The notes below the pieces were generated by a model. It was not told the DNA's origin, did no database searches, and saw only the letters and a list, made by a program, of their open reading frames with translations. 64,000 nucleotides of DNA from Austwickia sp. TVS 96-490-7B. Lineage in GTDB: Bacteria > Actinomycetota > Actinomycetes > Actinomycetales > Dermatophilaceae. The DNA lies in contig NZ_JAHPZL010000008.1 of assembly GCF_019331795.1 (NCBI RefSeq), positions 1 to 64,000 of the forward strand. The letters are read 5' to 3'. This document shows, piece after piece, positions 38,889 through 47,095 of this stretch (within the stretch, counting starts at the first letter, position 1; the number at the start of each line of letters is the position of its first letter). The position numbers and the translations under genes were made by a program.

Positions 38889-39032
38889 ACGACCTCCCTG
38901 CGGCACCGGCGGCCGCTGGTTGACGAGGGACAGGATGGGTATGGCACGACCCTACGCGATACTGCTGAACGTCAACTGGTCCGCCACGGCGGGTCCAGCC
39001 CCATCGAGGCCGGGGCAGAGCGTCGTCACCGG

Positions 39033-39038
39033 TAGAAT
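39033..39038 (+). promoter_or_regulatory. Candidate -10 for efp-nusB
   Basis: TAGAAT, 38 bases before the efp GTG. No clear -35 hexamer. Confidence 0.35.
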
Positions 39039-39076
39039 CGTGGCGATCCCTTTGTGTCGAGAAGAGAGACGACCAC

Positions 39077-39637
39077 GTGGCAACCACGAACGACCTGAAA
39101 AACGGCTTGGTCCTCAACATTGACGGTCAGCTGTGGACCGTCATCGAGTTCCAGCACGTCAAGCCCGGCAAGGGCGGTGCCTTCGTGCGCACCAAGCTGA
39201 AGAACGTGCTCTCAGGCAAGGTCGTCGACAAGACGTTCAACGCCGGCACCAAGGTCGAGACCAGCAACGTCGACAAGCGCACCATGCAGTACCTCTACAA
39301 GGACGGCGACGACTTCGTCTTCATGGACGGCAAGACCTTCGACCAGCTGTATGTCAGCAGCGCTGTCGTCGGCGACGCCGAGAAATACATGCTGGAAAAC
39401 CAGGACGCCATCGTCGCCACGCACGACGGTTCGCCGCTGTTCGTCGAACTCCCAGCCTCCGTCGAGTTGGTCATCACTTACACCGAGCCGGGCCTGCAAG
39501 GTGACCGCTCCACTGGCGGCACCAAGCCTGCGACGTTGGAAACGGGCGCGGAGATCCAGGTGCCGCTGTTCCTGGAGCAGGGCACTAAGGTCAAGGTTGA
39601 CACCCGCGACGGCAGCTACCTGGGTCGCGTCAACTGA
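39077..39637 (+). CDS. efp: Elongation factor P
   Basis: Rescues ribosomes stalled at polyproline by binding between the P and E sites. The 186-residue protein has the three-domain layout and normal length. The functional loop is [12 protein letters not shown] with Lys32 at the tip; domain III ends with the family signature [13 protein letters not shown]. Start is GTG 39077. Its stop overlaps the nusB ATG by one base (TGATG). In many actinomycetes efp follows aroB and pepQ; here an ABC exporter and a lipoprotein stand between. No EF-P modification gene is seen nearby. Confidence 0.98.
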
Positions 39638-40140
39638 TGTCGACCTCGTCCGGGCCGCATGAGGAGACCTCCGGCGCTCGCGGCGCCGCCGCGCGCGGGC
39701 GAGGTGGGCGAGAACCCCTCAGTGGTGCTCGCACCAAAGCTCGACGAGCCGCATTAGACCTGCTGTTCGAAGCCGAGCAGCGTGGCCTGAACGCCAGGAC
39801 TTTGCTGGCCGAGCGCACTGCTCGGCCGGTCGACGACAAACGGTTACGCCCCTACACCGTGACCCTCGTCGAAGGAGTGATCCACCGCTGGCGGGTCATC
39901 GAGGAAGCCCTCGGCACCTACAGTCAGGGCTGGCCGGTCAGCAGGATGCCGGCGGTGGACCGAGCCATCCTGCGAGTCGGAGCTTGGGAGATCCTCTTCA
40001 ACGACGACGTCCCGGACGCCGTGGCAACCCAGCAGGCGGTGGAGTTGGCGACGGCCTTGTCGACCGATGAATCACCCAACTTCGTCAACGGTTTGCTGTC
40101 TCGGCTGTCCGAGGTGAAGGACACCATCGACCGCAGTTGA
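39637..40140 (+). CDS. nusB: Transcription antitermination protein NusB
   Basis: Binds boxA RNA with NusE for rRNA antitermination. The helical NusB domain runs from about residue 29 (RRAALDLLFEAEQRG) to the end, with SRMPAVDRAILRVGAWEILF and ATQQAVELATALSTDESPNFVNGLLSRL as the signature helices. The first 28 residues are a Gly/Ala/Arg-rich extension seen in actinobacterial NusB. Forms a two-gene operon with efp and ends at a very strong hairpin. Confidence 0.96.
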   Translation: MSTSSGPHEETSGARGAAARGRGGREPLSGARTKARRAALDLLFEAEQRGLNARTLLAERTARPVDDKRLRPYTVTLVEGVIHRWRVIEEALGTYSQGWPVSRMPAVDRAILRVGAWEILFNDDVPDAVATQQAVELATALSTDESPNFVNGLLSRLSEVKDTIDRS

Positions 40141-40162
40141 CCGGTACGACGAGATCGTGCGG

Positions 40163-40208
40163 TGTGGAGTGTGGGCCCGAGGAAAATTCCTCGGGCCCAC
40201 ACTCCACA
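40163..40208 (+). terminator. Long hairpin terminator after nusB
   Basis: Perfect 22-bp stem (40163-40184 with 40187-40208) around AA, starting 23 bases after the nusB stop. No T-run. It isolates the following protease gene from nusB transcription. Confidence 0.75.
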
Positions 40209-40323
40209 GTGGCGGCGACTGGTCTGATGGGCCTCTGCGACAGGGGTGTATCACCACGGCGGGTCACAGCCTCCCCTGGGTGACGGCGATATTCTCCGCC
40301 GTTCTTCCCGGAGGGAGCCAGCC

Positions 40324-41946
40324 ATGAACGCCAGGAACACCGGGTCATCGTCCCGGAAGGCAGCAGAGGGCGAAGGAAAATGCCCACCCCCGAACGCCGA
40401 AAACGTGCTCTTCCCACCTCGACTGGACGTCCTCGCGCTGGCCGAAGCCACCGGCGCAGGACCTGCCTACGCGACCATCCTCGAATCGATCTGCGGTTCC
40501 ACTGACGACAGCCAACCGGTCGAACAGTATGACGGGACTCTCGGCGTCAGTGTGGATTTCGTCGCTTCCCATCAGCGTCCAGTGGTGCAGGTGCAGTGGA
40601 ACGACGACCTTGGCAGTCGTTACACCGATCCCGGTGATGTCGCTGGAGTGAGATGGGGCAGCGGCACTTTGATTGCTCCTGACGTGATGCTGACCTGTGG
40701 GCACCTCTTTGACCAGGATCCTCATGGATGGCGGGTGCCACGTCAGAACGGCACCACCACCGCGATCAGCCCCACCGAGATCGCCAGCAACATGCACATC
40801 AACGTCGACTACCAGATCGACCCCACGGGAAACCTGCGAGCGGAGGTGCGTTTCCCGATCATCGAGCTCGTGGAGTACCGTCTCGGCGGAATTGACATGG
40901 CAGTCTGTCGTCTCGCAGGGACGCCTGGGGTGACCTACGGGGTGACCAGAGTTGCTACGGCAGATGCTGTTGTCGGCGACATGTTGGCGATCATCGGTCA
41001 TCCGGCAGGGCAGCCTAAACGGGTCGAAGCGGGCCCGGCAGTAGCGATCGGTGAAGGTCGAATTTCCTACAGCGACATTGACACCCTCGGTGGTAACTCC
41101 GGGTCGGGCATCCTGCAAGCGACCACCGGCAGACTGGTTGGCGTGCACACCAACGGAGGGTGCGCTGCGCAAGGCGGCGCCAACTCTGGGGTCACCATCG
41201 GTGCGGTGCTGGCGGTGTCTCCCACGGTGACGAAGCTGAGTCAGCGCACCGTGTTGGCGCAGGATGTCAACGGAACATTGCTCCAGCGAGACACCATTCG
41301 TGCGTGGGACTCCCACCTCGCCCAGGACACCCTTCTGGCTCAAGACACCGGGTTAGGCAAGGATTCCCAGCTCGCTCAGGACACGCTGCTGTCCAAGGAC
41401 ACCCATCTCGTTGCGGATACGCCGTTGGCACGGGATACCCACCTGTCGTATGACCTGAACACTGGTTGGCGTGACGTCGCCCATGCTGCGGCTCCACGGG
41501 AGGGCGTGTACACCGTTCTGCAGGAGGAAGGAACGAATGTCGACGACGTACTACACCGGACCTACACCAGCCGTGGCAAGGACATCCTGCAGCATGGTCA
41601 CACCAGTCGTGCCGGTGACACCACGAACACGTTCTACTCCGACGACGATCCACACACGTGGAACGAAAACGCGAATACCTTCTGCGAGGGTGCATGGAAC
41701 CCGGGGGCGGTCCTGCATGATCCGATCGTCAACCCTGTCAGTAGGACGACCCGGTTGCGCCCATTTGTCCAAGCGGGAGCTTTCCGCGTACTCAGTCCAG
41801 TTCAGCAGTACGGCGACATGTCAGAGGTGCCGATCGACTCGCAGGACGACTCCGTCGTAGTCGTCGACCGGGAAGAGTTGCTCGGGTTGTTGTCCCAGGC
41901 AGCTCAGGCTCTCGACGCTGCGATGGAGGAGCTGATGCGGTCATGA
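40324..41946 (+). CDS. Trypsin-like serine protease with tandem hexapeptide repeat tail
   Basis: A 540-residue protein, no signal peptide, so probably cytoplasmic. Residues about 75-300 are a chymotrypsin-fold protease with an apparently intact triad: His127 (TCGHLF), Asp191 (GGIDMAV) and Ser259 (GGNSGSG). Residues 319-372 are nine tandem hexapeptides of the form xLxxD(T/S), with degenerate copies at 310-315 and 373-378. A second stretch (about 400-450) is also rich in Thr, Ser and Asp (TYTSRGKD, TSRAGDTTNTFYSDDD). The tail ends in a helical segment (REELLGLLSQAAQALDAAMEELM). ATG 40324 follows GGAGGGAG. Its stop overlaps the start of an MvdD-like ATP-grasp gene, implying co-translation; the repeat tail is my candidate substrate of that ligase (inference). 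Confidence 0.85.
   Translation: MNARNTGSSSRKAAEGEGKCPPPNAENVLFPPRLDVLALAEATGAGPAYATILESICGSTDDSQPVEQYDGTLGVSVDFVASHQRPVVQVQWNDDLGSRYTDPGDVAGVRWGSGTLIAPDVMLTCGHLFDQDPHGWRVPRQNGTTTAISPTEIASNMHINVDYQIDPTGNLRAEVRFPIIELVEYRLGGIDMAVCRLAGTPGVTYGVTRVATADAVVGDMLAIIGHPAGQPKRVEAGPAVAIGEGRISYSDIDTLGGNSGSGILQATTGRLVGVHTNGGCAAQGGANSGVTIGAVLAVSPTVTKLSQRTVLAQDVNGTLLQRDTIRAWDSHLAQDTLLAQDTGLGKDSQLAQDTLLSKDTHLVADTPLARDTHLSYDLNTGWRDVAHAAAPREGVYTVLQEEGTNVDDVLHRTYTSRGKDILQHGHTSRAGDTTNTFYSDDDPHTWNENANTFCEGAWNPGAVLHDPIVNPVSRTTRLRPFVQAGAFRVLSPVQQYGDMSEVPIDSQDDSVVVVDREELLGLLSQAAQALDAAMEELMRS
41278..41439 (+). repeat. Nine tandem hexapeptide-coding units (xLxxD[T/S])
   Basis: Units in order: LLQRDT, IRAWDS, HLAQDT, LLAQDT, GLGKDS, QLAQDT, LLSKDT, HLVADT, PLARDT. 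Eighteen bases each with no indels; the DNA varies at third positions, so the pattern is kept at protein level. Position 5 is always Asp and position 6 always Thr or Ser; position 2 is Leu in eight of nine. Confidence 0.9.
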
Positions 41947-42962
41947 TCGGTATCGTCTCCTCCCCAGATGACTTGCATGCCCAGGTCGTCCGGGATGAGC
42001 TGGACGCTCGTGGGGCAGAGCACGTCCTGATTGATACAGGGTCACTTCCAGCGGTCACCAGTGTGACTGTCACCCAGCATGACGACACCTGGTCGGCGAT
42101 GTGGGATCGTGGAACCTTTGGGGGGCGGGTCGATGTCACGGATCTGCACGCGATGTGGTGGCGTCGACCGCAACCGTTTGACATTCCGGTGGAGGTGTCC
42201 GAGCCCATTGATCGGGATTTCGCTCGCGGTGAGTGTGCGGCATTCTTGACAGGGCTGTGGTCCTGCTTGGACGCCCGGTGGGTCAATGATCCGGACGCTG
42301 ATGAGGCAGCGAGTCGGAAGATGCGCCAGCTGAAGGTCGCAGCATCTTTGGGGCTGGATATTCCCCGGACTTGCATGACCAGCGATCCGGCGGTGGCCCG
42401 CGAGTTTATCGACGTCTTCGGTGGGGTCGCCCGCGACGATGGTTCTCTGGTTGGCGAGTCAGCGGTGATCTTCAAACCGTTTTCGGCCACTGAGGCGACA
42501 TGGCGGGAAACCCGCCCGGTTCGCACTGGTGACCTCGCATTATTGGACGGGGTGCGTTGCGCCCCAGTGATCTTTCAGGAGTATGTCGGTGGGGCGGATG
42601 TCAGGGTCACCGTGGTGGGAGAGCAGGTGTTTGCGGCTGCCACGAGGTGCGACGAGGGCGGTTATCCCTACGATTTCCGGGTCGATCCGGATCGGACCTG
42701 GTCGGTGCACCAGTTGCCGGAGCCCGTGGCCGCGGCGCTATTGGGGTTGCACCGTGCACTCGGGATTTGGTACGGCGCGGTGGACCTGCGGTTGACCCCT
42801 CAGGGTCGGTATGTCTTCTTAGAGGTCAACCCGGCAGGGCAATGGTTGTTCACTGAGTTGCCGACGGGCTTGGAGATCTCCGCTGCGTTGGCGGATCTGT
42901 TGGTGTTCTTTGATCGTGGTGGGACGCGAGGTGAGATGGCGAATAGATGCCAGGTCGGGTGA
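41943..42962 (+). CDS. MvdD-like ATP-grasp ligase (graspetide-type maturase)
   Basis: A 339-residue ATP-grasp enzyme resembling the MvdC/MvdD and TgmB group, which use ATP to join Thr/Ser or Lys side chains to Asp/Glu side chains in graspetide RiPPs. The N-terminal domain has WWRRP (72-76), typical of this group. The ATP-grasp core has VIFKPF (Lys178), the hinge FQEYV (211-215), and the metal-binding strand FLEVNPAGQW (292-301; Glu294, Asn296), whose NPxGQW ending is characteristic. Starts by ATGA overlap with the protease gene. No standard short precursor peptide is adjacent. The 3' end overlaps the convergent CHAT gene by 113 bases. RimK-like or other ligase activity is possible but the WWRRP and NPxGQW motifs argue for the graspetide branch. 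Confidence 0.88.
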   Translation: MIGIVSSPDDLHAQVVRDELDARGAEHVLIDTGSLPAVTSVTVTQHDDTWSAMWDRGTFGGRVDVTDLHAMWWRRPQPFDIPVEVSEPIDRDFARGECAAFLTGLWSCLDARWVNDPDADEAASRKMRQLKVAASLGLDIPRTCMTSDPAVAREFIDVFGGVARDDGSLVGESAVIFKPFSATEATWRETRPVRTGDLALLDGVRCAPVIFQEYVGGADVRVTVVGEQVFAAATRCDEGGYPYDFRVDPDRTWSVHQLPEPVAAALLGLHRALGIWYGAVDLRLTPQGRYVFLEVNPAGQWLFTELPTGLEISAALADLLVFFDRGGTRGEMANRCQVG

Positions 42963-45627
42963 TGGGCGCAGGTCCTGGTGTGTCATTGCGTGGCGGGGGG
43001 AGATGCCGCTGCCAAGGGCCCCCGAAGCAGGTGAACGGGGTGCCCAGCGGAAGTGTCGAGGCAGCAAGAGCCAAGGCCTGATCGGCTGGTGACCCATCGG
43101 CCAGGCCTTGATGCAGTTGGACCATCACTGCTGCGGTCTGTTCGTCGCGGACCGGAGTTAACGGGGCGATCACGGTGTGCACGCCGAGTGCGAGAAGCGC
43201 GGACGGCCACCCGAGTGGCTCCTCACCGGGGCGTGCGGTGCCCCGTCCGGTGTCGCAGGCGGACAAGACCACCAAGGACGCTCGGATGGTGCGGCTCTCC
43301 AATTCGTGAGCGAAGAAAGGGCCGTCAGCTAGCCGGAGCGAGCTGAACAGGGGGCTGCGCCGGTGATGGTCGCCATGAGCGGCGATGTGGACAATATCGG
43401 CAGTCGACAGCCCAGCGAGCAGATCGTCACGGGTGGCGGGGGATGGGGGCGGCGTGTCCTGACCGGTCCATACGGTCAGGACACGCCGGATCTCTGCTGG
43501 CGCGTGCGGCAGGCCAGGGCCGTGGAGGGACACGATCCGGGGTGGTCGAGGTTGTTGCTGCTCTTCTCGATTGAGTTGTCGAGACCAGCTGAGCAGGGAC
43601 GGCGCGAGGGTGGTGGGGTAGCCACGACGACTGGGGAGCATCCCCCAAGGGATGACGCCGAACAGATCCCCACCGAGGACGACCAACGACGAGCTTCCTG
43701 CCAACTGTATGGCGGGGACGAGGAGCTCATCCAGTGCGCTGAGAGAACGCCGGGTGGCATCGCTGACGAGGTGAGTGAGGAAGGGGTCATCAGCGACGCG
43801 TACGACAGCGTCGATGTCGTTGCTGACCCGGTCGATCTGTCGCCATAGCTGATCGGCGGGACCAAGATCGACCATCTGGGTGTTCCCCGTCGGGGGCGAG
43901 ATCACAGCCATGACATGGTGGTGCAGGTGGAGGAGCGCCAGGACCGTCGTACCGTGTCGGTGTGTCGTGGTGACGGCATCGACGATCTCAGCGTGGGACG
44001 GGCCGTGTGCGGTGACGTTGTCGAGGCGGCATCGGGCTCGCCACCGGGTGGCGGCGGTGGCGCGTTCCAGCCGTCGTACGTCGGCTCGGGCTTGCGCGGT
44101 CGTCGTCGAATCAGCGTGAGCGAGGTCATCGCGGGCTTGGCGCAACCTACTGAGCAGAAAGGCCTCTTCAGCGTCCGGTGGAGGATGGACGGGAACGAGA
44201 GGGTCGATGGCGCGTCGCCACCGTTCCAGTCGGTGAAGCACGCTCCAGGGTCGTCCGGAGTTGTAGGCCAGTCCTAGATCGAGGTCGGCGAGCCTACGGG
44301 CGTGGACAGCGAGCGCGGTACGGGCATCTAGACCTGCGATGCGAGATTGGGTGTTGGCGAGGTCGTCTGCGGCTCGGGCGAGCCGGGCTCGGGCGGCGCG
44401 GATCCGTCCTCGGGCGAGGTCGACCCGGATGCGGGCGTGGGCGTATCCCAGCCGTGCGGTCACGTGGGGGGATTGCGTCAGTGATCGGGCGTCGTCGAGG
44501 ACACGCGCTGCGATGTGAGCTGCGTGTATCGGGTCGTGACTATTGTCGGATCCGTCGCAGAGGGCTTCGGCCAGTTCGAGACGGGCAGCGGCAGCGGTGT
44601 CACTGTCGCCAATCGCTGTTGCCGCGTTGATCAGGTGGTGTGCGCTCTGGGCGCGGGCTGCGCAGCTGAGGTCAGGGGGAGTGGCCGCGAGGTCCGCCGC
44701 GTAGGCGGCGGCTTGGAGTTGGACGAGTCGGGCCCGGTTTTCCCACCATGGTTCGTGACGTCGGTGGAATTGATGGACGGCGTGTTCGGCGCGTCGGGCG
44801 GCGCGGAGAGGGTCGCCGAGGAGGAGTTCGCATCGGGCGAGATCGACGTCGATTTCGGTGACCTCCCGATGGACGCCGTCGGCGGTGAATGCGGCTGCGG
44901 ATTCGTGGAAGGCTTCAGCGGCTTCCCGGATTAGTCCTGCTTCGCAGAGGACTCGGGCCCGGTCGAGCAGGGTGATCCCGCAGTTCATCGCGATGCCGGT
45001 GCGGGCGGCGTCATCCATGAGCCGAAGCGCTTCGGGCAGGTCACCTTGGATGAAAGCGGCGCATCCTTGGTTGTGTCGGGCTTTGAACCACAAGGTGGTC
45101 AGTCCTGCCTCGTCAGCGAGTGTCGCCGCGGTGTCGAAATCAGTGCGAGCGGCGGCGATATCGTGGCATTGGTGGTGGAGGATGCCGCGATGCATGACCA
45201 GGCGGACCTGGTCGGCCAGGGGCATATCCAGTCGGTATTCCTCAGCTCGGCGCAGGGCGTCCAGAGCTCCAGTGATATCGCCGCAGCGAGCACGCAGGAT
45301 GCCTCGTTGGACGTCGCTGGCGGCGATCAGATCTGTGCGAGTGGCTTCGGTGGATTCTTCACTGATTCGGTCGAGTTCAGCTAAGGCGGCAGCGGGTCCT
45401 TCCCGGTCGAAGGTCACCCAGGTCGCAGTGAGACGGAGGCGCATCAGCAGGTCGTGGGGCAAAGACGTTCTCGACGTGGTGGCCAACTCTTGGGCGTGCA
45501 GCAGGCAGCGATGCCCGTCGTCGAGGTGATATCCGTTGAAAGCGATACGAGCTTGGTCGAGGAGGTCGTTGACCTGCTCGGCAAGGAGAGGGGGGTCCTC
45601 CGTCACTCTGGGAAACGGCGGGTGCAC
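42850..45627 (-). CDS. TPR-CHAT domain caspase-like protease
   Basis: About 925 residues. The N-terminal two thirds are tetratricopeptide-like helical repeats (for example CGDITGALDALRRAEEYR and GDLPEALRLMDDAARTG), a protein-binding scaffold. The C-terminal CHAT domain is a caspase-fold peptidase with catalytic His751 (VHIAAHGDHH) and Cys791 (LSACDTG), 40 residues apart as expected. Strands such as SSLVVLGGDLFGVIPWGMLPS and GVHTVIAPLTPVRDEQT are typical. The start is uncertain; GTG 45627 is the first good candidate after the upstream stop at 45656. The unconserved C-terminal 36 residues overlap the ATP-grasp gene. Last gene of a minus-strand operon led by a small acidic peptide and an ECF sigma factor. 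Confidence 0.85.
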   Translation of the reverse strand: MHPPFPRVTEDPPLLAEQVNDLLDQARIAFNGYHLDDGHRCLLHAQELATTSRTSLPHDLLMRLRLTATWVTFDREGPAAALAELDRISEESTEATRTDLIAASDVQRGILRARCGDITGALDALRRAEEYRLDMPLADQVRLVMHRGILHHQCHDIAAARTDFDTAATLADEAGLTTLWFKARHNQGCAAFIQGDLPEALRLMDDAARTGIAMNCGITLLDRARVLCEAGLIREAAEAFHESAAAFTADGVHREVTEIDVDLARCELLLGDPLRAARRAEHAVHQFHRRHEPWWENRARLVQLQAAAYAADLAATPPDLSCAARAQSAHHLINAATAIGDSDTAAAARLELAEALCDGSDNSHDPIHAAHIAARVLDDARSLTQSPHVTARLGYAHARIRVDLARGRIRAARARLARAADDLANTQSRIAGLDARTALAVHARRLADLDLGLAYNSGRPWSVLHRLERWRRAIDPLVPVHPPPDAEEAFLLSRLRQARDDLAHADSTTTAQARADVRRLERATAATRWRARCRLDNVTAHGPSHAEIVDAVTTTHRHGTTVLALLHLHHHVMAVISPPTGNTQMVDLGPADQLWRQIDRVSNDIDAVVRVADDPFLTHLVSDATRRSLSALDELLVPAIQLAGSSSLVVLGGDLFGVIPWGMLPSRRGYPTTLAPSLLSWSRQLNREEQQQPRPPRIVSLHGPGLPHAPAEIRRVLTVWTGQDTPPPSPATRDDLLAGLSTADIVHIAAHGDHHRRSPLFSSLRLADGPFFAHELESRTIRASLVVLSACDTGRGTARPGEEPLGWPSALLALGVHTVIAPLTPVRDEQTAAVMVQLHQGLADGSPADQALALAASTLPLGTPFTCFGGPWQRHLPPPRNDTPGPAPITRPGIYSPSHLASHHDQRTPTDPPTQRRSPSPSATQ

Positions 45628-45655
45628 TGTGGTGGTGTTGACCGGGTCCGTGGGT

Positions 45656-46153
45656 TCACAGCTGCACCGTCGGGGTCGTGACGGGAGGGGAGTTGTCAGG
45701 CCTGATGACAAACCGGGCTGCTCCCGGCAGGACGTTGGTGAAGGTGAGGCGGCCGTCGGGGTCGGCGTCGAGGGCCCGGGGATGGCTGTCGTCCAACCAC
45801 AGCTCCACCCGGGTCCCGGGGATGCTGACCCAGCATTCCACATCGAGTCGGAGATCGTCGTCGAGCAGGTCCTGTCGTCGGACCCGGATCATGAGACTGA
45901 CTGCACTGCCCCGGAAAGTTGCCGTGTCGGTGCAGGTGGGGTTGTCGCTGCCGGAGCTGCGGAGGCTCGACAAGGTGCCCTCTTGCAGTTCGGCTAGTTC
46001 GGCATGGAGTCCTGCCAGGGTCATCCGATAGGCGATCCGGGTGGTCATTCCCCGTGGCAACGGGTCCCCGCGTTCGCAGCTATGCCGGAGAGCGTCCAGG
46101 ATCGCAGTGTCAGTCTGGTCGAGAAGGTCGGATTCACGGTGGGAGTGGGTCAT
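45656..46153 (-). CDS. Uncharacterised protein in the sigma-CHAT operon
   Basis: A 165-residue soluble protein, no signal or membrane segment. The first 70 residues are helical (DLLDQTDTAILDALRHSCERG). From about residue 95 the pattern looks like a small beta-sandwich: VECWVSIPGTRVELWLDD then ADPDGRLTFTNVLPGAARFVI, which resembles the DxxGxFxFxxVPxGxxRL strand of carboxypeptidase-regulatory-like domains. ATG 46153 overlaps the sigma gene stop (ATGA), preferred over ATG 46165. Position after a sigma factor suggests an anti-sigma or adaptor role, but nothing in the sequence proves it. Confidence 0.7.
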   Translation of the reverse strand: MTHSHRESDLLDQTDTAILDALRHSCERGDPLPRGMTTRIAYRMTLAGLHAELAELQEGTLSSLRSSGSDNPTCTDTATFRGSAVSLMIRVRRQDLLDDDLRLDVECWVSIPGTRVELWLDDSHPRALDADPDGRLTFTNVLPGAARFVIRPDNSPPVTTPTVQL

Positions 46154-46749
46154 GGGGCGCTCCACGTGGGGTCGGCCAGGAGCGCTGACCTCAACGTGGC
46201 CAGGCAGCGTCCCCGGGTGGGACCGATCGAGCCGACCGGCATACCCAATGATTGAGATATCGAGGCGTAGTCGGGGCGGTCAGCGAAGCAAATCACCCGC
46301 AGGAGCGCCTGACAGCGGGGGCTGAGTTGACGAACGTGCATCCACAGTCGGTCGGCCTGGACGTTTGCTACTGCCCGTTCCTGAGGGTCGACCGGGATGC
46401 TGCCGGTGATGACGGGCCTGCCATCGAGGGACAGCGCCGAGTCGTCGCTGCTGAGGGTACGGCGGCAACGGTGCATCAACCGCCACGATTCTCGACGTAC
46501 CGTGGTGAGCAGCCAGCCCACCACGGCGTCAGGGTCGTGCACGTCGTCTTGGTGCTCCACGAGGTGGAGCCACGCCTGTTGTACGGCGTCCTCAGCGGTG
46601 GCCGCGTCCAGACCGGCGGAACGCGCGACCTGCCACAACAGTGGCGTCACTAACTCCACCAGGTCGATCATGCGTTCACCGTCCCCGGCGCGCACATCCC
46701 GCAGGATGGCACCAGCGCGTTGTCCCAGGGTCGTTGCCGCGGCGGGCAT
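46150..46749 (-). CDS. ECF-type RNA polymerase sigma factor
   Basis: A 199-residue sigma-70 family factor with only regions 2 and 4. Region 2 is seen in LVTPLLWQVARSAGLDAATAEDAVQQAWLHLVEH and VVGWLLTTVRRESWRLMHR; region 4 in LSPRCQALLRVICFADRPDYASISQSLGMPVGSIGPTRGRCLATLRSAL. ATG 46749 follows CCAGGAG. It sits 15 bases after a small acidic peptide gene and overlaps the next gene by ATGA. It probably drives its own operon and perhaps the convergent protease/ATP-grasp pair; I could not find a shared promoter motif by eye. No classical zinc anti-sigma gene is present. Confidence 0.9.
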   Translation of the reverse strand: MPAAATTLGQRAGAILRDVRAGDGERMIDLVELVTPLLWQVARSAGLDAATAEDAVQQAWLHLVEHQDDVHDPDAVVGWLLTTVRRESWRLMHRCRRTLSSDDSALSLDGRPVITGSIPVDPQERAVANVQADRLWMHVRQLSPRCQALLRVICFADRPDYASISQSLGMPVGSIGPTRGRCLATLRSALLADPTWSAP

Positions 46750-46764
46750 CTGGGCACTCCTGGA

Positions 46765-46926
46765 TCAGGCAGGGGGATCGTCGGGATCGACTGACACGTC
46801 AGCTGGGTCGCCTAAGGTGTCGTAAACCCACACCGGCCGATCACCATCGAGAGGGGCATCCTCCAGGTCAGCGGGGAGAGTGTCTTCAGGGTCGAAGGTC
46901 TCGAGGGAACGTCGCGTCGCGGCCAT
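46765..46926 (-). CDS. Small acidic peptide, first gene of the sigma-CHAT operon
   Basis: A 53-residue open frame with a good Shine-Dalgarno (AAAGGA, six bases before ATG 46926). Fifteen residues are Asp or Glu (net strongly negative), with six Thr/Ser. It contains two DTL motifs in acidic settings, EDTLPAD (14-20) and YDTLGDP (35-41), reminiscent of the D-T-L steps in the protease repeat array (QDTLLAQDT). No signal peptide and no Cys. It could be an anti-sigma-like regulator or a ligase substrate; I do not recognise a family. Confidence 0.65.
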   Translation of the reverse strand: MAATRRSLETFDPEDTLPADLEDAPLDGDRPVWVYDTLGDPADVSVDPDDPPA

Positions 46927-47095
46927 GACGGGTCCTTTCTGTCCGGGCGGGAGCTAGGATGCCTCCACACCTCCGCGGGAGCGTGCAACGACGGTCTTGA
47001 TACATCATTGGCCTGCCTTGGTGGGTATTGGCAAGAGGGAGGAGCCGGGCGGGCATTTCCGGGCATCGTGGCGCTCGCAGCTGGGGACATGAAGA

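Follow-up and report, generated by a model that had tools for sequence, protein, structure and literature searches.

Graspetide-type ATP-grasp ligases and the repeat-bearing C-terminal tails of neighboring proteases as their likely substrates

The leader of graspetide precursors carries a Phhx(1,2)h motif (PMC8939145), and in the customary layout this leader is N-terminal and belongs to a small, separate precursor. This layout is a custom and not the chemical definition of graspetides. Corallotide (CorA/CorB), from graspetide group 15, has a repeated precursor of 22 kDa in which a TIGR04187 ligase makes single isopeptide rings at KxxxD (PMC13097080). It resembles the locus described here in the ligase type, the large repeated precursor and the single-ring KxxxD motif, the last of which also occurs in several Lys-type tails of the present set. 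Unlike the present proteins, CorA is a stand-alone precursor without a protease domain, has its leader-like part at the N-terminus, and is accompanied by a hydroxylating enzyme. Gra-4 contains TxxKxxDD repeats with evidence for both lactone and lactam formation (PMC9576775); the same repeats are present in one of our loci (L042), but the Gra-4 precursor is small and separate. The fuscimiditide ligase ThfB was reported to form a 6-residue ring to Ser in a side reaction and to cyclize whole fluorescent proteins (PMC12291112), and its leader remains functional when transplanted to the C-terminus (PMC13003496). Such substrates are engineered, however, and the natural precursor of ThfB lacks an enzyme domain and carries its leader at the N-terminus.

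A further set of graspetide ligases is encoded beside peptidases. Branches 7 and 8 of Makarova 2022 (PMC8939145) combine ATP-grasp ligases with several unrelated peptidase families and no small precursor, a feature that the loci described here share. Those branches include YscW homologues, truncated ATP-grasp ligases and cyanobacterial members; neither of the two partners was seen as conserved in 16 lineage groups of the present set, although no YscW profile was run. The 2022 survey sought precursors among proteins of at most 150 aa and left the peptidase-associated ligases without one (PMC8939145); substrates in the tails of large enzymes were therefore beyond its reach. In the 2026 survey (PMC13097080), group 32 has diverse neighboring protease families and group 9 has a serine proteinase in over half of its members, both as in the present set, but these proteases were read there as maturation or resistance genes. 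Hidden protease tails could explain the peptidase-linked ligases that lack a precursor, a possibility only, since identity of the present loci with branches 7/8 or groups 32/9 has not been shown. In the open-access literature searched, no account was found of a protease carrying a graspetide core; subscription papers and the 2021 survey were largely outside that search, and an earlier description is possible. What is probably new here, the reaction itself being inferred, is the direction of graspetide chemistry to the tails of enzymes from three protease families, with recognition through a C-terminal motif.

The protease-ligase pair and the tail of the protease

The window, the whole stretch of 64,000 nucleotides from Austwickia sp. 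TVS 96-490-7B that was analyzed, contains a trypsin-like protease gene whose stop codon overlaps the start codon of an ATP-grasp ligase gene by 4 bp (ATGA; Table 1). An earlier note, made by reading the sequence alone, had claimed this overlapping pair, an intact catalytic triad and the absence of a separate precursor nearby. The pair held, with its coordinates and the named motifs WWRRP, FKPF and FLEVNPAGQW all present. The triad also held (CGH127LF, GGID191MAV and GGNS259GSG), and the protein meets the criterion for S1 peptidases, namely an S1 domain bearing His, Asp and Ser. The absence of a precursor held as well but was incomplete, in that a candidate core inside the C-terminus of the protease had been overlooked.

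Table 1. Features of the protease-ligase locus, with positions in the window.
Feature	Position	Strand	Remark
Trypsin-like protease	40324..41946	+	540 residues: catalytic domain, repeat tail, PF motif, C-terminal helix; proposed ligase substrate
Lys/Arg/Ser/Thr-rich N-terminal stretch	40324-40380		by eye
Trypsin-like (S1) catalytic domain, ~residues 57-309	40492..41250	+	Pfam Trypsin_2; ordered part of AlphaFold model
Eleven [T/S]-x4-D motifs, residues 309-377	41248..41454	+	candidate graspetide core
Three further T-x4-D motifs, starts at residues 415, 427, 436	41566..41646	+	motif listing
RPFVQAG, residues 479-485	41758..41778	+	proposed recognition (follower) motif
C-terminal helix, residues 516-539	41869..41940	+	AlphaFold model, pLDDT ~80-85 there
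ATP-grasp graspetide-type ligase	41943..42962	+	339 residues; profile and fold matches
TPR-CHAT protein, 159-aa protein without Pfam match, ECF-type sigma factor	42850-46749	-	convergent group

The ligase was found to match TIGR04187 with an E value of 9.5e-62 (209 bits) and MvdC/MvdD with about 155 bits. These scores are all below the NCBI curated cut-offs for TIGR04187, MvdC and MvdD (350, 425 and 475), while the Pfam gathering scores were exceeded for the MvdD pre-ATP-grasp domain (29.5 bits) and RimK (26.7 bits). The fold is a model prediction (AlphaFold, mean pLDDT 88 from an alignment of 15); the nearest folds were MdnC, CdnC, AMdnB, PruB and PsnB, all graspetide macrocyclases, with RimK further away. 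MdnB/MdnC were matched at 2.1e-61 by sequence profile and at 5.2e-27 by fold, versus 5.7e-12 and 2.9e-15 for RimK. By sequence and predicted fold, the criterion for an MvdC/MvdD/MdnC-type ATP-grasp ligase is met, and this assignment is likely correct despite scores below the NCBI cut-offs. Placement of the ligase had been set beforehand as a test; grouping with graspetide maturases means that the claim was not refuted. The genome of the window contains only one match to the ligase.

The Pfam Trypsin_2 match of the protease spans residues 112-274 (E 4.2e-13), and residues 310-514 were modeled as disordered. The eleven [T/S]-x4-D hexapeptides at the beginning of this tail are contiguous, the sole gap being three residues after the first. 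The tail meets the criterion for a graspetide substrate, that is, regular Thr/Ser/Lys donors upstream of Asp/Glu acceptors. Its RPFVQA sequence resembles graspetide leader motifs and satisfies the Phhx(1,2)h-type criterion, but follows the core, whereas ordinary leaders precede it. P480 and F481 are conserved without exception in the 15 aligned paired S1 proteases, and the first seven astacin and M43 tails to be examined have a PF motif as well. The usual layout is thus not met by this system, in which both core and recognition motif form the C-terminal tail of a 540-residue protease. Small ORFs adjoining more distant ligases begin with similar motifs (MQPFALNYARP in L051 and MKPFIFQAQ in L089) and are likely the precursors of those ligases. 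For the window ligase, the graspetide core is likely the C-terminus of the protease itself, residues 309-441, so that the substrate would be built in; crosslinking is inferred, and there are no mass data.

Precursor ORFs of 20-150 aa containing P-F-hydrophobic were sought on both strands of positions 39001-47000. Two such ORFs were found: one lies within the protease gene but in a different frame, and the other runs antisense to the sigma-factor gene. This listing was limited to the P-F-hydrophobic motif and did not systematically cover precursors without it.

Occurrence of the tail module

Scanning of genome_contigs with the protease gave 29 loci, of which 21 were paired with a ligase, seven were ligase-less (L026-L030, L036, L039) and one (L040) was truncated inside the protease and excluded from the counts. 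The ligase is directly downstream of the protease in the 21 paired loci, between a 4-bp overlap and 126 bp downstream, and these loci range from Cellulomonas and Cellulosimicrobium to Marivita, metagenome assemblies of Chromatiales and Cytophagales, and Halorubrum. The plasmid collection contained five protease relatives, four of which (L085-L088) were examined. A tail of this kind, Thr-type or Lys-type, was observed in 22/22 ligase-paired S1 proteases (the window and the 21 loci) and in none of the 11 homologues without a ligase (seven genome loci and four plasmid loci). Many rows are close relatives, so these counts are not independent. The pair is conserved, and the earlier note, which had named lack of conservation as a refutation, was not refuted on this point either.

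Other domains occupy the tail position in several ligase-less homologues. At the C-terminal end, Pfam assigns DUF346 repeats to L026 and L028 and ricin-type lectin repeats to L027 and L029. By eye, L030 looks similar to the lectin-type pair, and the ends of L036 and L039 consist of other sequence. The four plasmid homologues end in FG-GAP-like repeats, in a part annotated as murein endopeptidase, or right after the catalytic domain. Lectin-type, DUF346 or FG-GAP repeats are thus found there in 6/11 cases. Of the seven genomes with ligase-less loci, six gave no ligase match elsewhere at 1e-10 and one gave a weak match of 43 bits; for the plasmid homologues, the ligase was sought in the plasmid collection only and not in their chromosomes.

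Ligase searches revealed two further protease families. The gene before the ligase encodes an astacin in L002, L003, L074, L076, L077 and L104-L107, and an M43 peptidase in L042 and L072, the latter on a Burkholderia stagnalis plasmid; Pfam confirmed four astacins and both M43 proteins, and the other astacins were assigned by an in-house profile. Their tails contain Lys-Asp/Glu repeats, or eight T-x4-D motifs in L072, followed by PF motifs such as APFVLATPHH and then by a predicted or apparent helix. When the S1 module was made into a profile, it matched both M43 tails and all five astacin tails then collected (E 1e-11 to 2.5e-3), whereas S1 proteins without a ligase gave E values of at least 1. 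A profile built the other way round, from astacin and M43 modules, found 10/22 S1 tails but missed the window tail, whose E value (1.7) did not improve on that of ligase-less L027 (0.97).

In the ligase-first set of 58 rows, all 21 ligases with at least 314 profile bits have a protease with the module upstream (10 S1, nine astacin and two M43; module E ≤ 1.2e-7), versus 0/36 rows (35 distinct ligases) below that score. L109 and L110 are the same ligase, and L094 lacks upstream DNA; L009, L011, L065, L070 and L071 were excluded as weak or partial, and L041, L047, L066-L069 and L075 as copies. Six positive rows (L073, L096-L098, L100, L101) are apparently second copies of protease-scan loci, and seven (L099, L102-L107) are neither among the profile-building rows nor copies of them. 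The nearest ligase under the cut (L089, 310 bits) adjoins a 53-residue ORF resembling an ordinary precursor. Weak module matches were observed in DNA upstream of two ordinary ligases (L095, 1.1e-3; L010, 2.1e-3). In the ligase tree, the tail-linked ligases are joined with weak support (26 rows, 87/49) at a node that includes the protease-less L004, and two ordinary ligases form the next branch (96/91). The near-copies L019, L021, L033 and L037 were left out of this tree, and of L072-L110 only L072, L074, L076 and L077 were included. Overall, the architecture, its conservation, the co-occurrence of tail and ligase, and the common module on three protease families are shown.

Two loci deviate from this arrangement. 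L004 (with L047, from G055) is the tree neighbor of astacin-linked L077 (G1373), and the two have a downstream gene in common; no protease was found upstream of L004, which may be an orphaned ligase. In L103 (G1671), protease, tail and ligase are in one open frame lacking the C-terminal helix and the start of the ligase, possibly a natural fusion or an assembly error.

Donor-acceptor spacing was compared with that in shuffled sequences. The T/S-to-D/E distance of 5 was the most enriched of 12 distances in 21/29 paired tails (z 3.5-8.9). The remaining eight are Lys-type, with best K distances of 4 (four tails), 5 (two), 3 (one) and 1 (one, L074). In L022 only a weak K signal was detected (K distance 3, z 2.8), and L074 deviates, with z of 5.7 for T to E at 3 and of 6.0 for K to E at 1. 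Lys donors occur in the tails of relatives as KxxxD, Kx4E/D and TxxKxxDD, the last in four exact copies in the M43 protein L042. Distance 5 was also the best in 3/7 controls; lectin-type controls L027 and L029 contain seven and nine [T/S]x4D motifs within lectin repeats, at lower density and with z of 1.8 and 2.5. S1 tails were taken from about 75 residues past the DIDTL motif, and the first window motifs were thus left out. The distance from one motif to the next ranges from 6 to 16 in seven tails, and the window tail has isolated gaps of 12 and 43; this variation, with the +5 pair kept, speaks against a solenoid.

Proposed mechanism and rival explanations

The two genes likely make up a protein-scale graspetide system of their own, with recognition at the C-terminal end, a reading to which we assign a probability of roughly 0.75; the evidence is comparative only, and crosslinking is inferred. 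In this proposal, the protease would be made with a disordered C-terminal tail holding about 11-14 Thr/Ser-x4-Asp pairs, and the ligase, made beside its partner, would bind the element with the PF motif, which lies beyond the repeats and would act as a natural follower, replacing the leader. The ligase would activate Asp/Glu side chains of the flexible tail with ATP, and the upstream Thr/Ser, five residues before Asp, would attack to form 6-residue omega-ester rings; Lys donors in the modules of relatives would give isopeptide rings. The product would be a protease with a ring-studded tail. The reaction, the ring size and follower recognition are inferred by analogy with the published precedents. 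The claim of the earlier note that the ligase acts on its co-translated partner is thus supported on comparative grounds, with a refinement: the likely substrate is a dedicated repeat tail and not the catalytic domain, and the leader-like motif lies C-terminal to the core.

As a guess, the rings may shield the tail from proteolysis, and the tail may be a stalk, a binding arm or an inhibitor in cis. The inhibitor role is suggested by the fact that all graspetides characterized by 2022 inhibit proteases (PMC8939145), and the protected stalk or binding arm by the lectin-type or other repeats at this position in ligase-less homologues. Because two metalloprotease families have the tail too, a stalk or binding arm is tentatively favored over a cis inhibitor, an inference without functional data.

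A bolder reading is that a portable "stapled enzyme" cassette, consisting of Thr/Lys-Asp/Glu repeats, a follower motif and a helix and served by a dedicated ATP-grasp ligase, has been placed on proteases of no fewer than three unrelated families, in bacteria and in one haloarchaeon, with whole enzymes as the graspetide product and the proteases as the missing substrates of peptidase-linked graspetide ligases. We lean only slightly towards this reading. If true, it would supply a substrate for the peptidase-linked set of ligases and a natural example of C-terminal recognition, so far only engineered. It would also mean that the modification decorates enzymes, some microbes stapling whole enzymes and not only small peptides. 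A simple search rule would follow, namely to look at the C-terminal part encoded by the gene that precedes the ligase gene, and protein engineering would gain multi-ring tags.

Among rival explanations, a self-releasing RiPP survives best and remains possible: the crosslinked tail would be cut free by the fused protease as a secreted graspetide, the protease being the tool and not the product. A protease in cis fits this explanation, as does the protease inhibition by all graspetides characterized by 2022. Against it, 16 lineage groups showed neither a conserved exporter nor a GG site nor a separate gene for processing, transporter-like proteins at varying distances being all that was seen, and the other domains at the tail position in ligase-less homologues suggest a permanent appendage. 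Neither the absence of an exporter nor domain replacement excludes tail release. The earlier note had offered release of crosslinked fragments as an alternative, which stays hypothetical.

A second explanation, considered unlikely, is that the protease is a maturation enzyme only, cutting what the ligase has modified, be it a small precursor from another locus or peptides released from other proteins. It is close to the 2022 reading of peptidase-linked ATP-grasp ligases and is the customary reading of peptidases adjoining graspetide ligases (PMC8939145, PMC13097080). However, one tail module accompanies three protease families (S1, astacin, M43), the tail is missing from S1 homologues without a ligase, and there is no small PF-motif ORF of the precursor kind near the window pair and only the single ligase match in its own genome.

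That the tail is a structural or ion-binding, solenoid-like repeat and the ligase acts otherwise, for example by RimK-like amino acid addition, is very unlikely: the strictly six-residue periodicity of one part of the window tail and the [T/S]x4D motifs within the lectin repeats of ligase-less homologues are in its favor, but motif distances vary (6 to 16, once 43 in the window) with the +5 pair kept, residues 310-514 are modeled as disordered, donors switch between Thr and Lys, and the ligase is nearer MdnB/MdnC than RimK by both sequence and fold.

Neighboring genes and distribution

A conserved third gene was sought in 26 loci from 16 lineage groups, and one family was found in more than two groups; by eye it looks like ABC transporters, at varying distances. 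The convergent group next to the ligase (Table 1) includes a CHAT gene whose 3' end overlaps that of the ligase by 113 bases. The CHAT, 159-aa and sigma-factor genes were not counted as parts of the system, as none had a tblastn match at 1e-4 in L002-L040; L002-L011 span only about 4 kb, and a distant CHAT gene could have escaped detection. Export by contractile injection systems is likewise unsupported, with eCIS_core in 1/12 genomes searched.

A scan of viral_contigs with the ligase profile gave 21 pattern matches, with no relative among them, and the plasmid scan gave one ligase relative at 1e-40, in an unannotated region of Burkholderia stagnalis. At 1e-60, the ligase profile matched the center genome alone among 247 genomes (phylum of G349), 349 (phylum of G356) and 145 (class of G358). 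Matches were found in 4/199 genomes in the phylum of G351 and in 2/151 in the class of G350, the latter including the center; apart from the center, none of these had a tailed protease upstream. These searches scored only the top candidates per genome, and some matches may have been missed.

The N-terminal stretch rich in Lys, Arg, Ser and Thr in the window protease (Table 1) is also present in L002, L012, L016, L017, L023 and L031, and tailed S1 and astacin proteases with such a start have no obvious signal peptide; signal peptides were assessed by eye only, without a prediction tool. The ligase-less plasmid relatives L085-L088, from Agarilytica, Geminocystis, Sinorhizobium and Shinella, adjoin genes for other hydrolases, namely S8 peptidases (L085, L087, L088) or a GH19 chitinase-type enzyme and a murein amidase (L086). 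By eye, L085, L087 and L088 start with signal-peptide-like hydrophobic stretches, unlike the tailed proteases.
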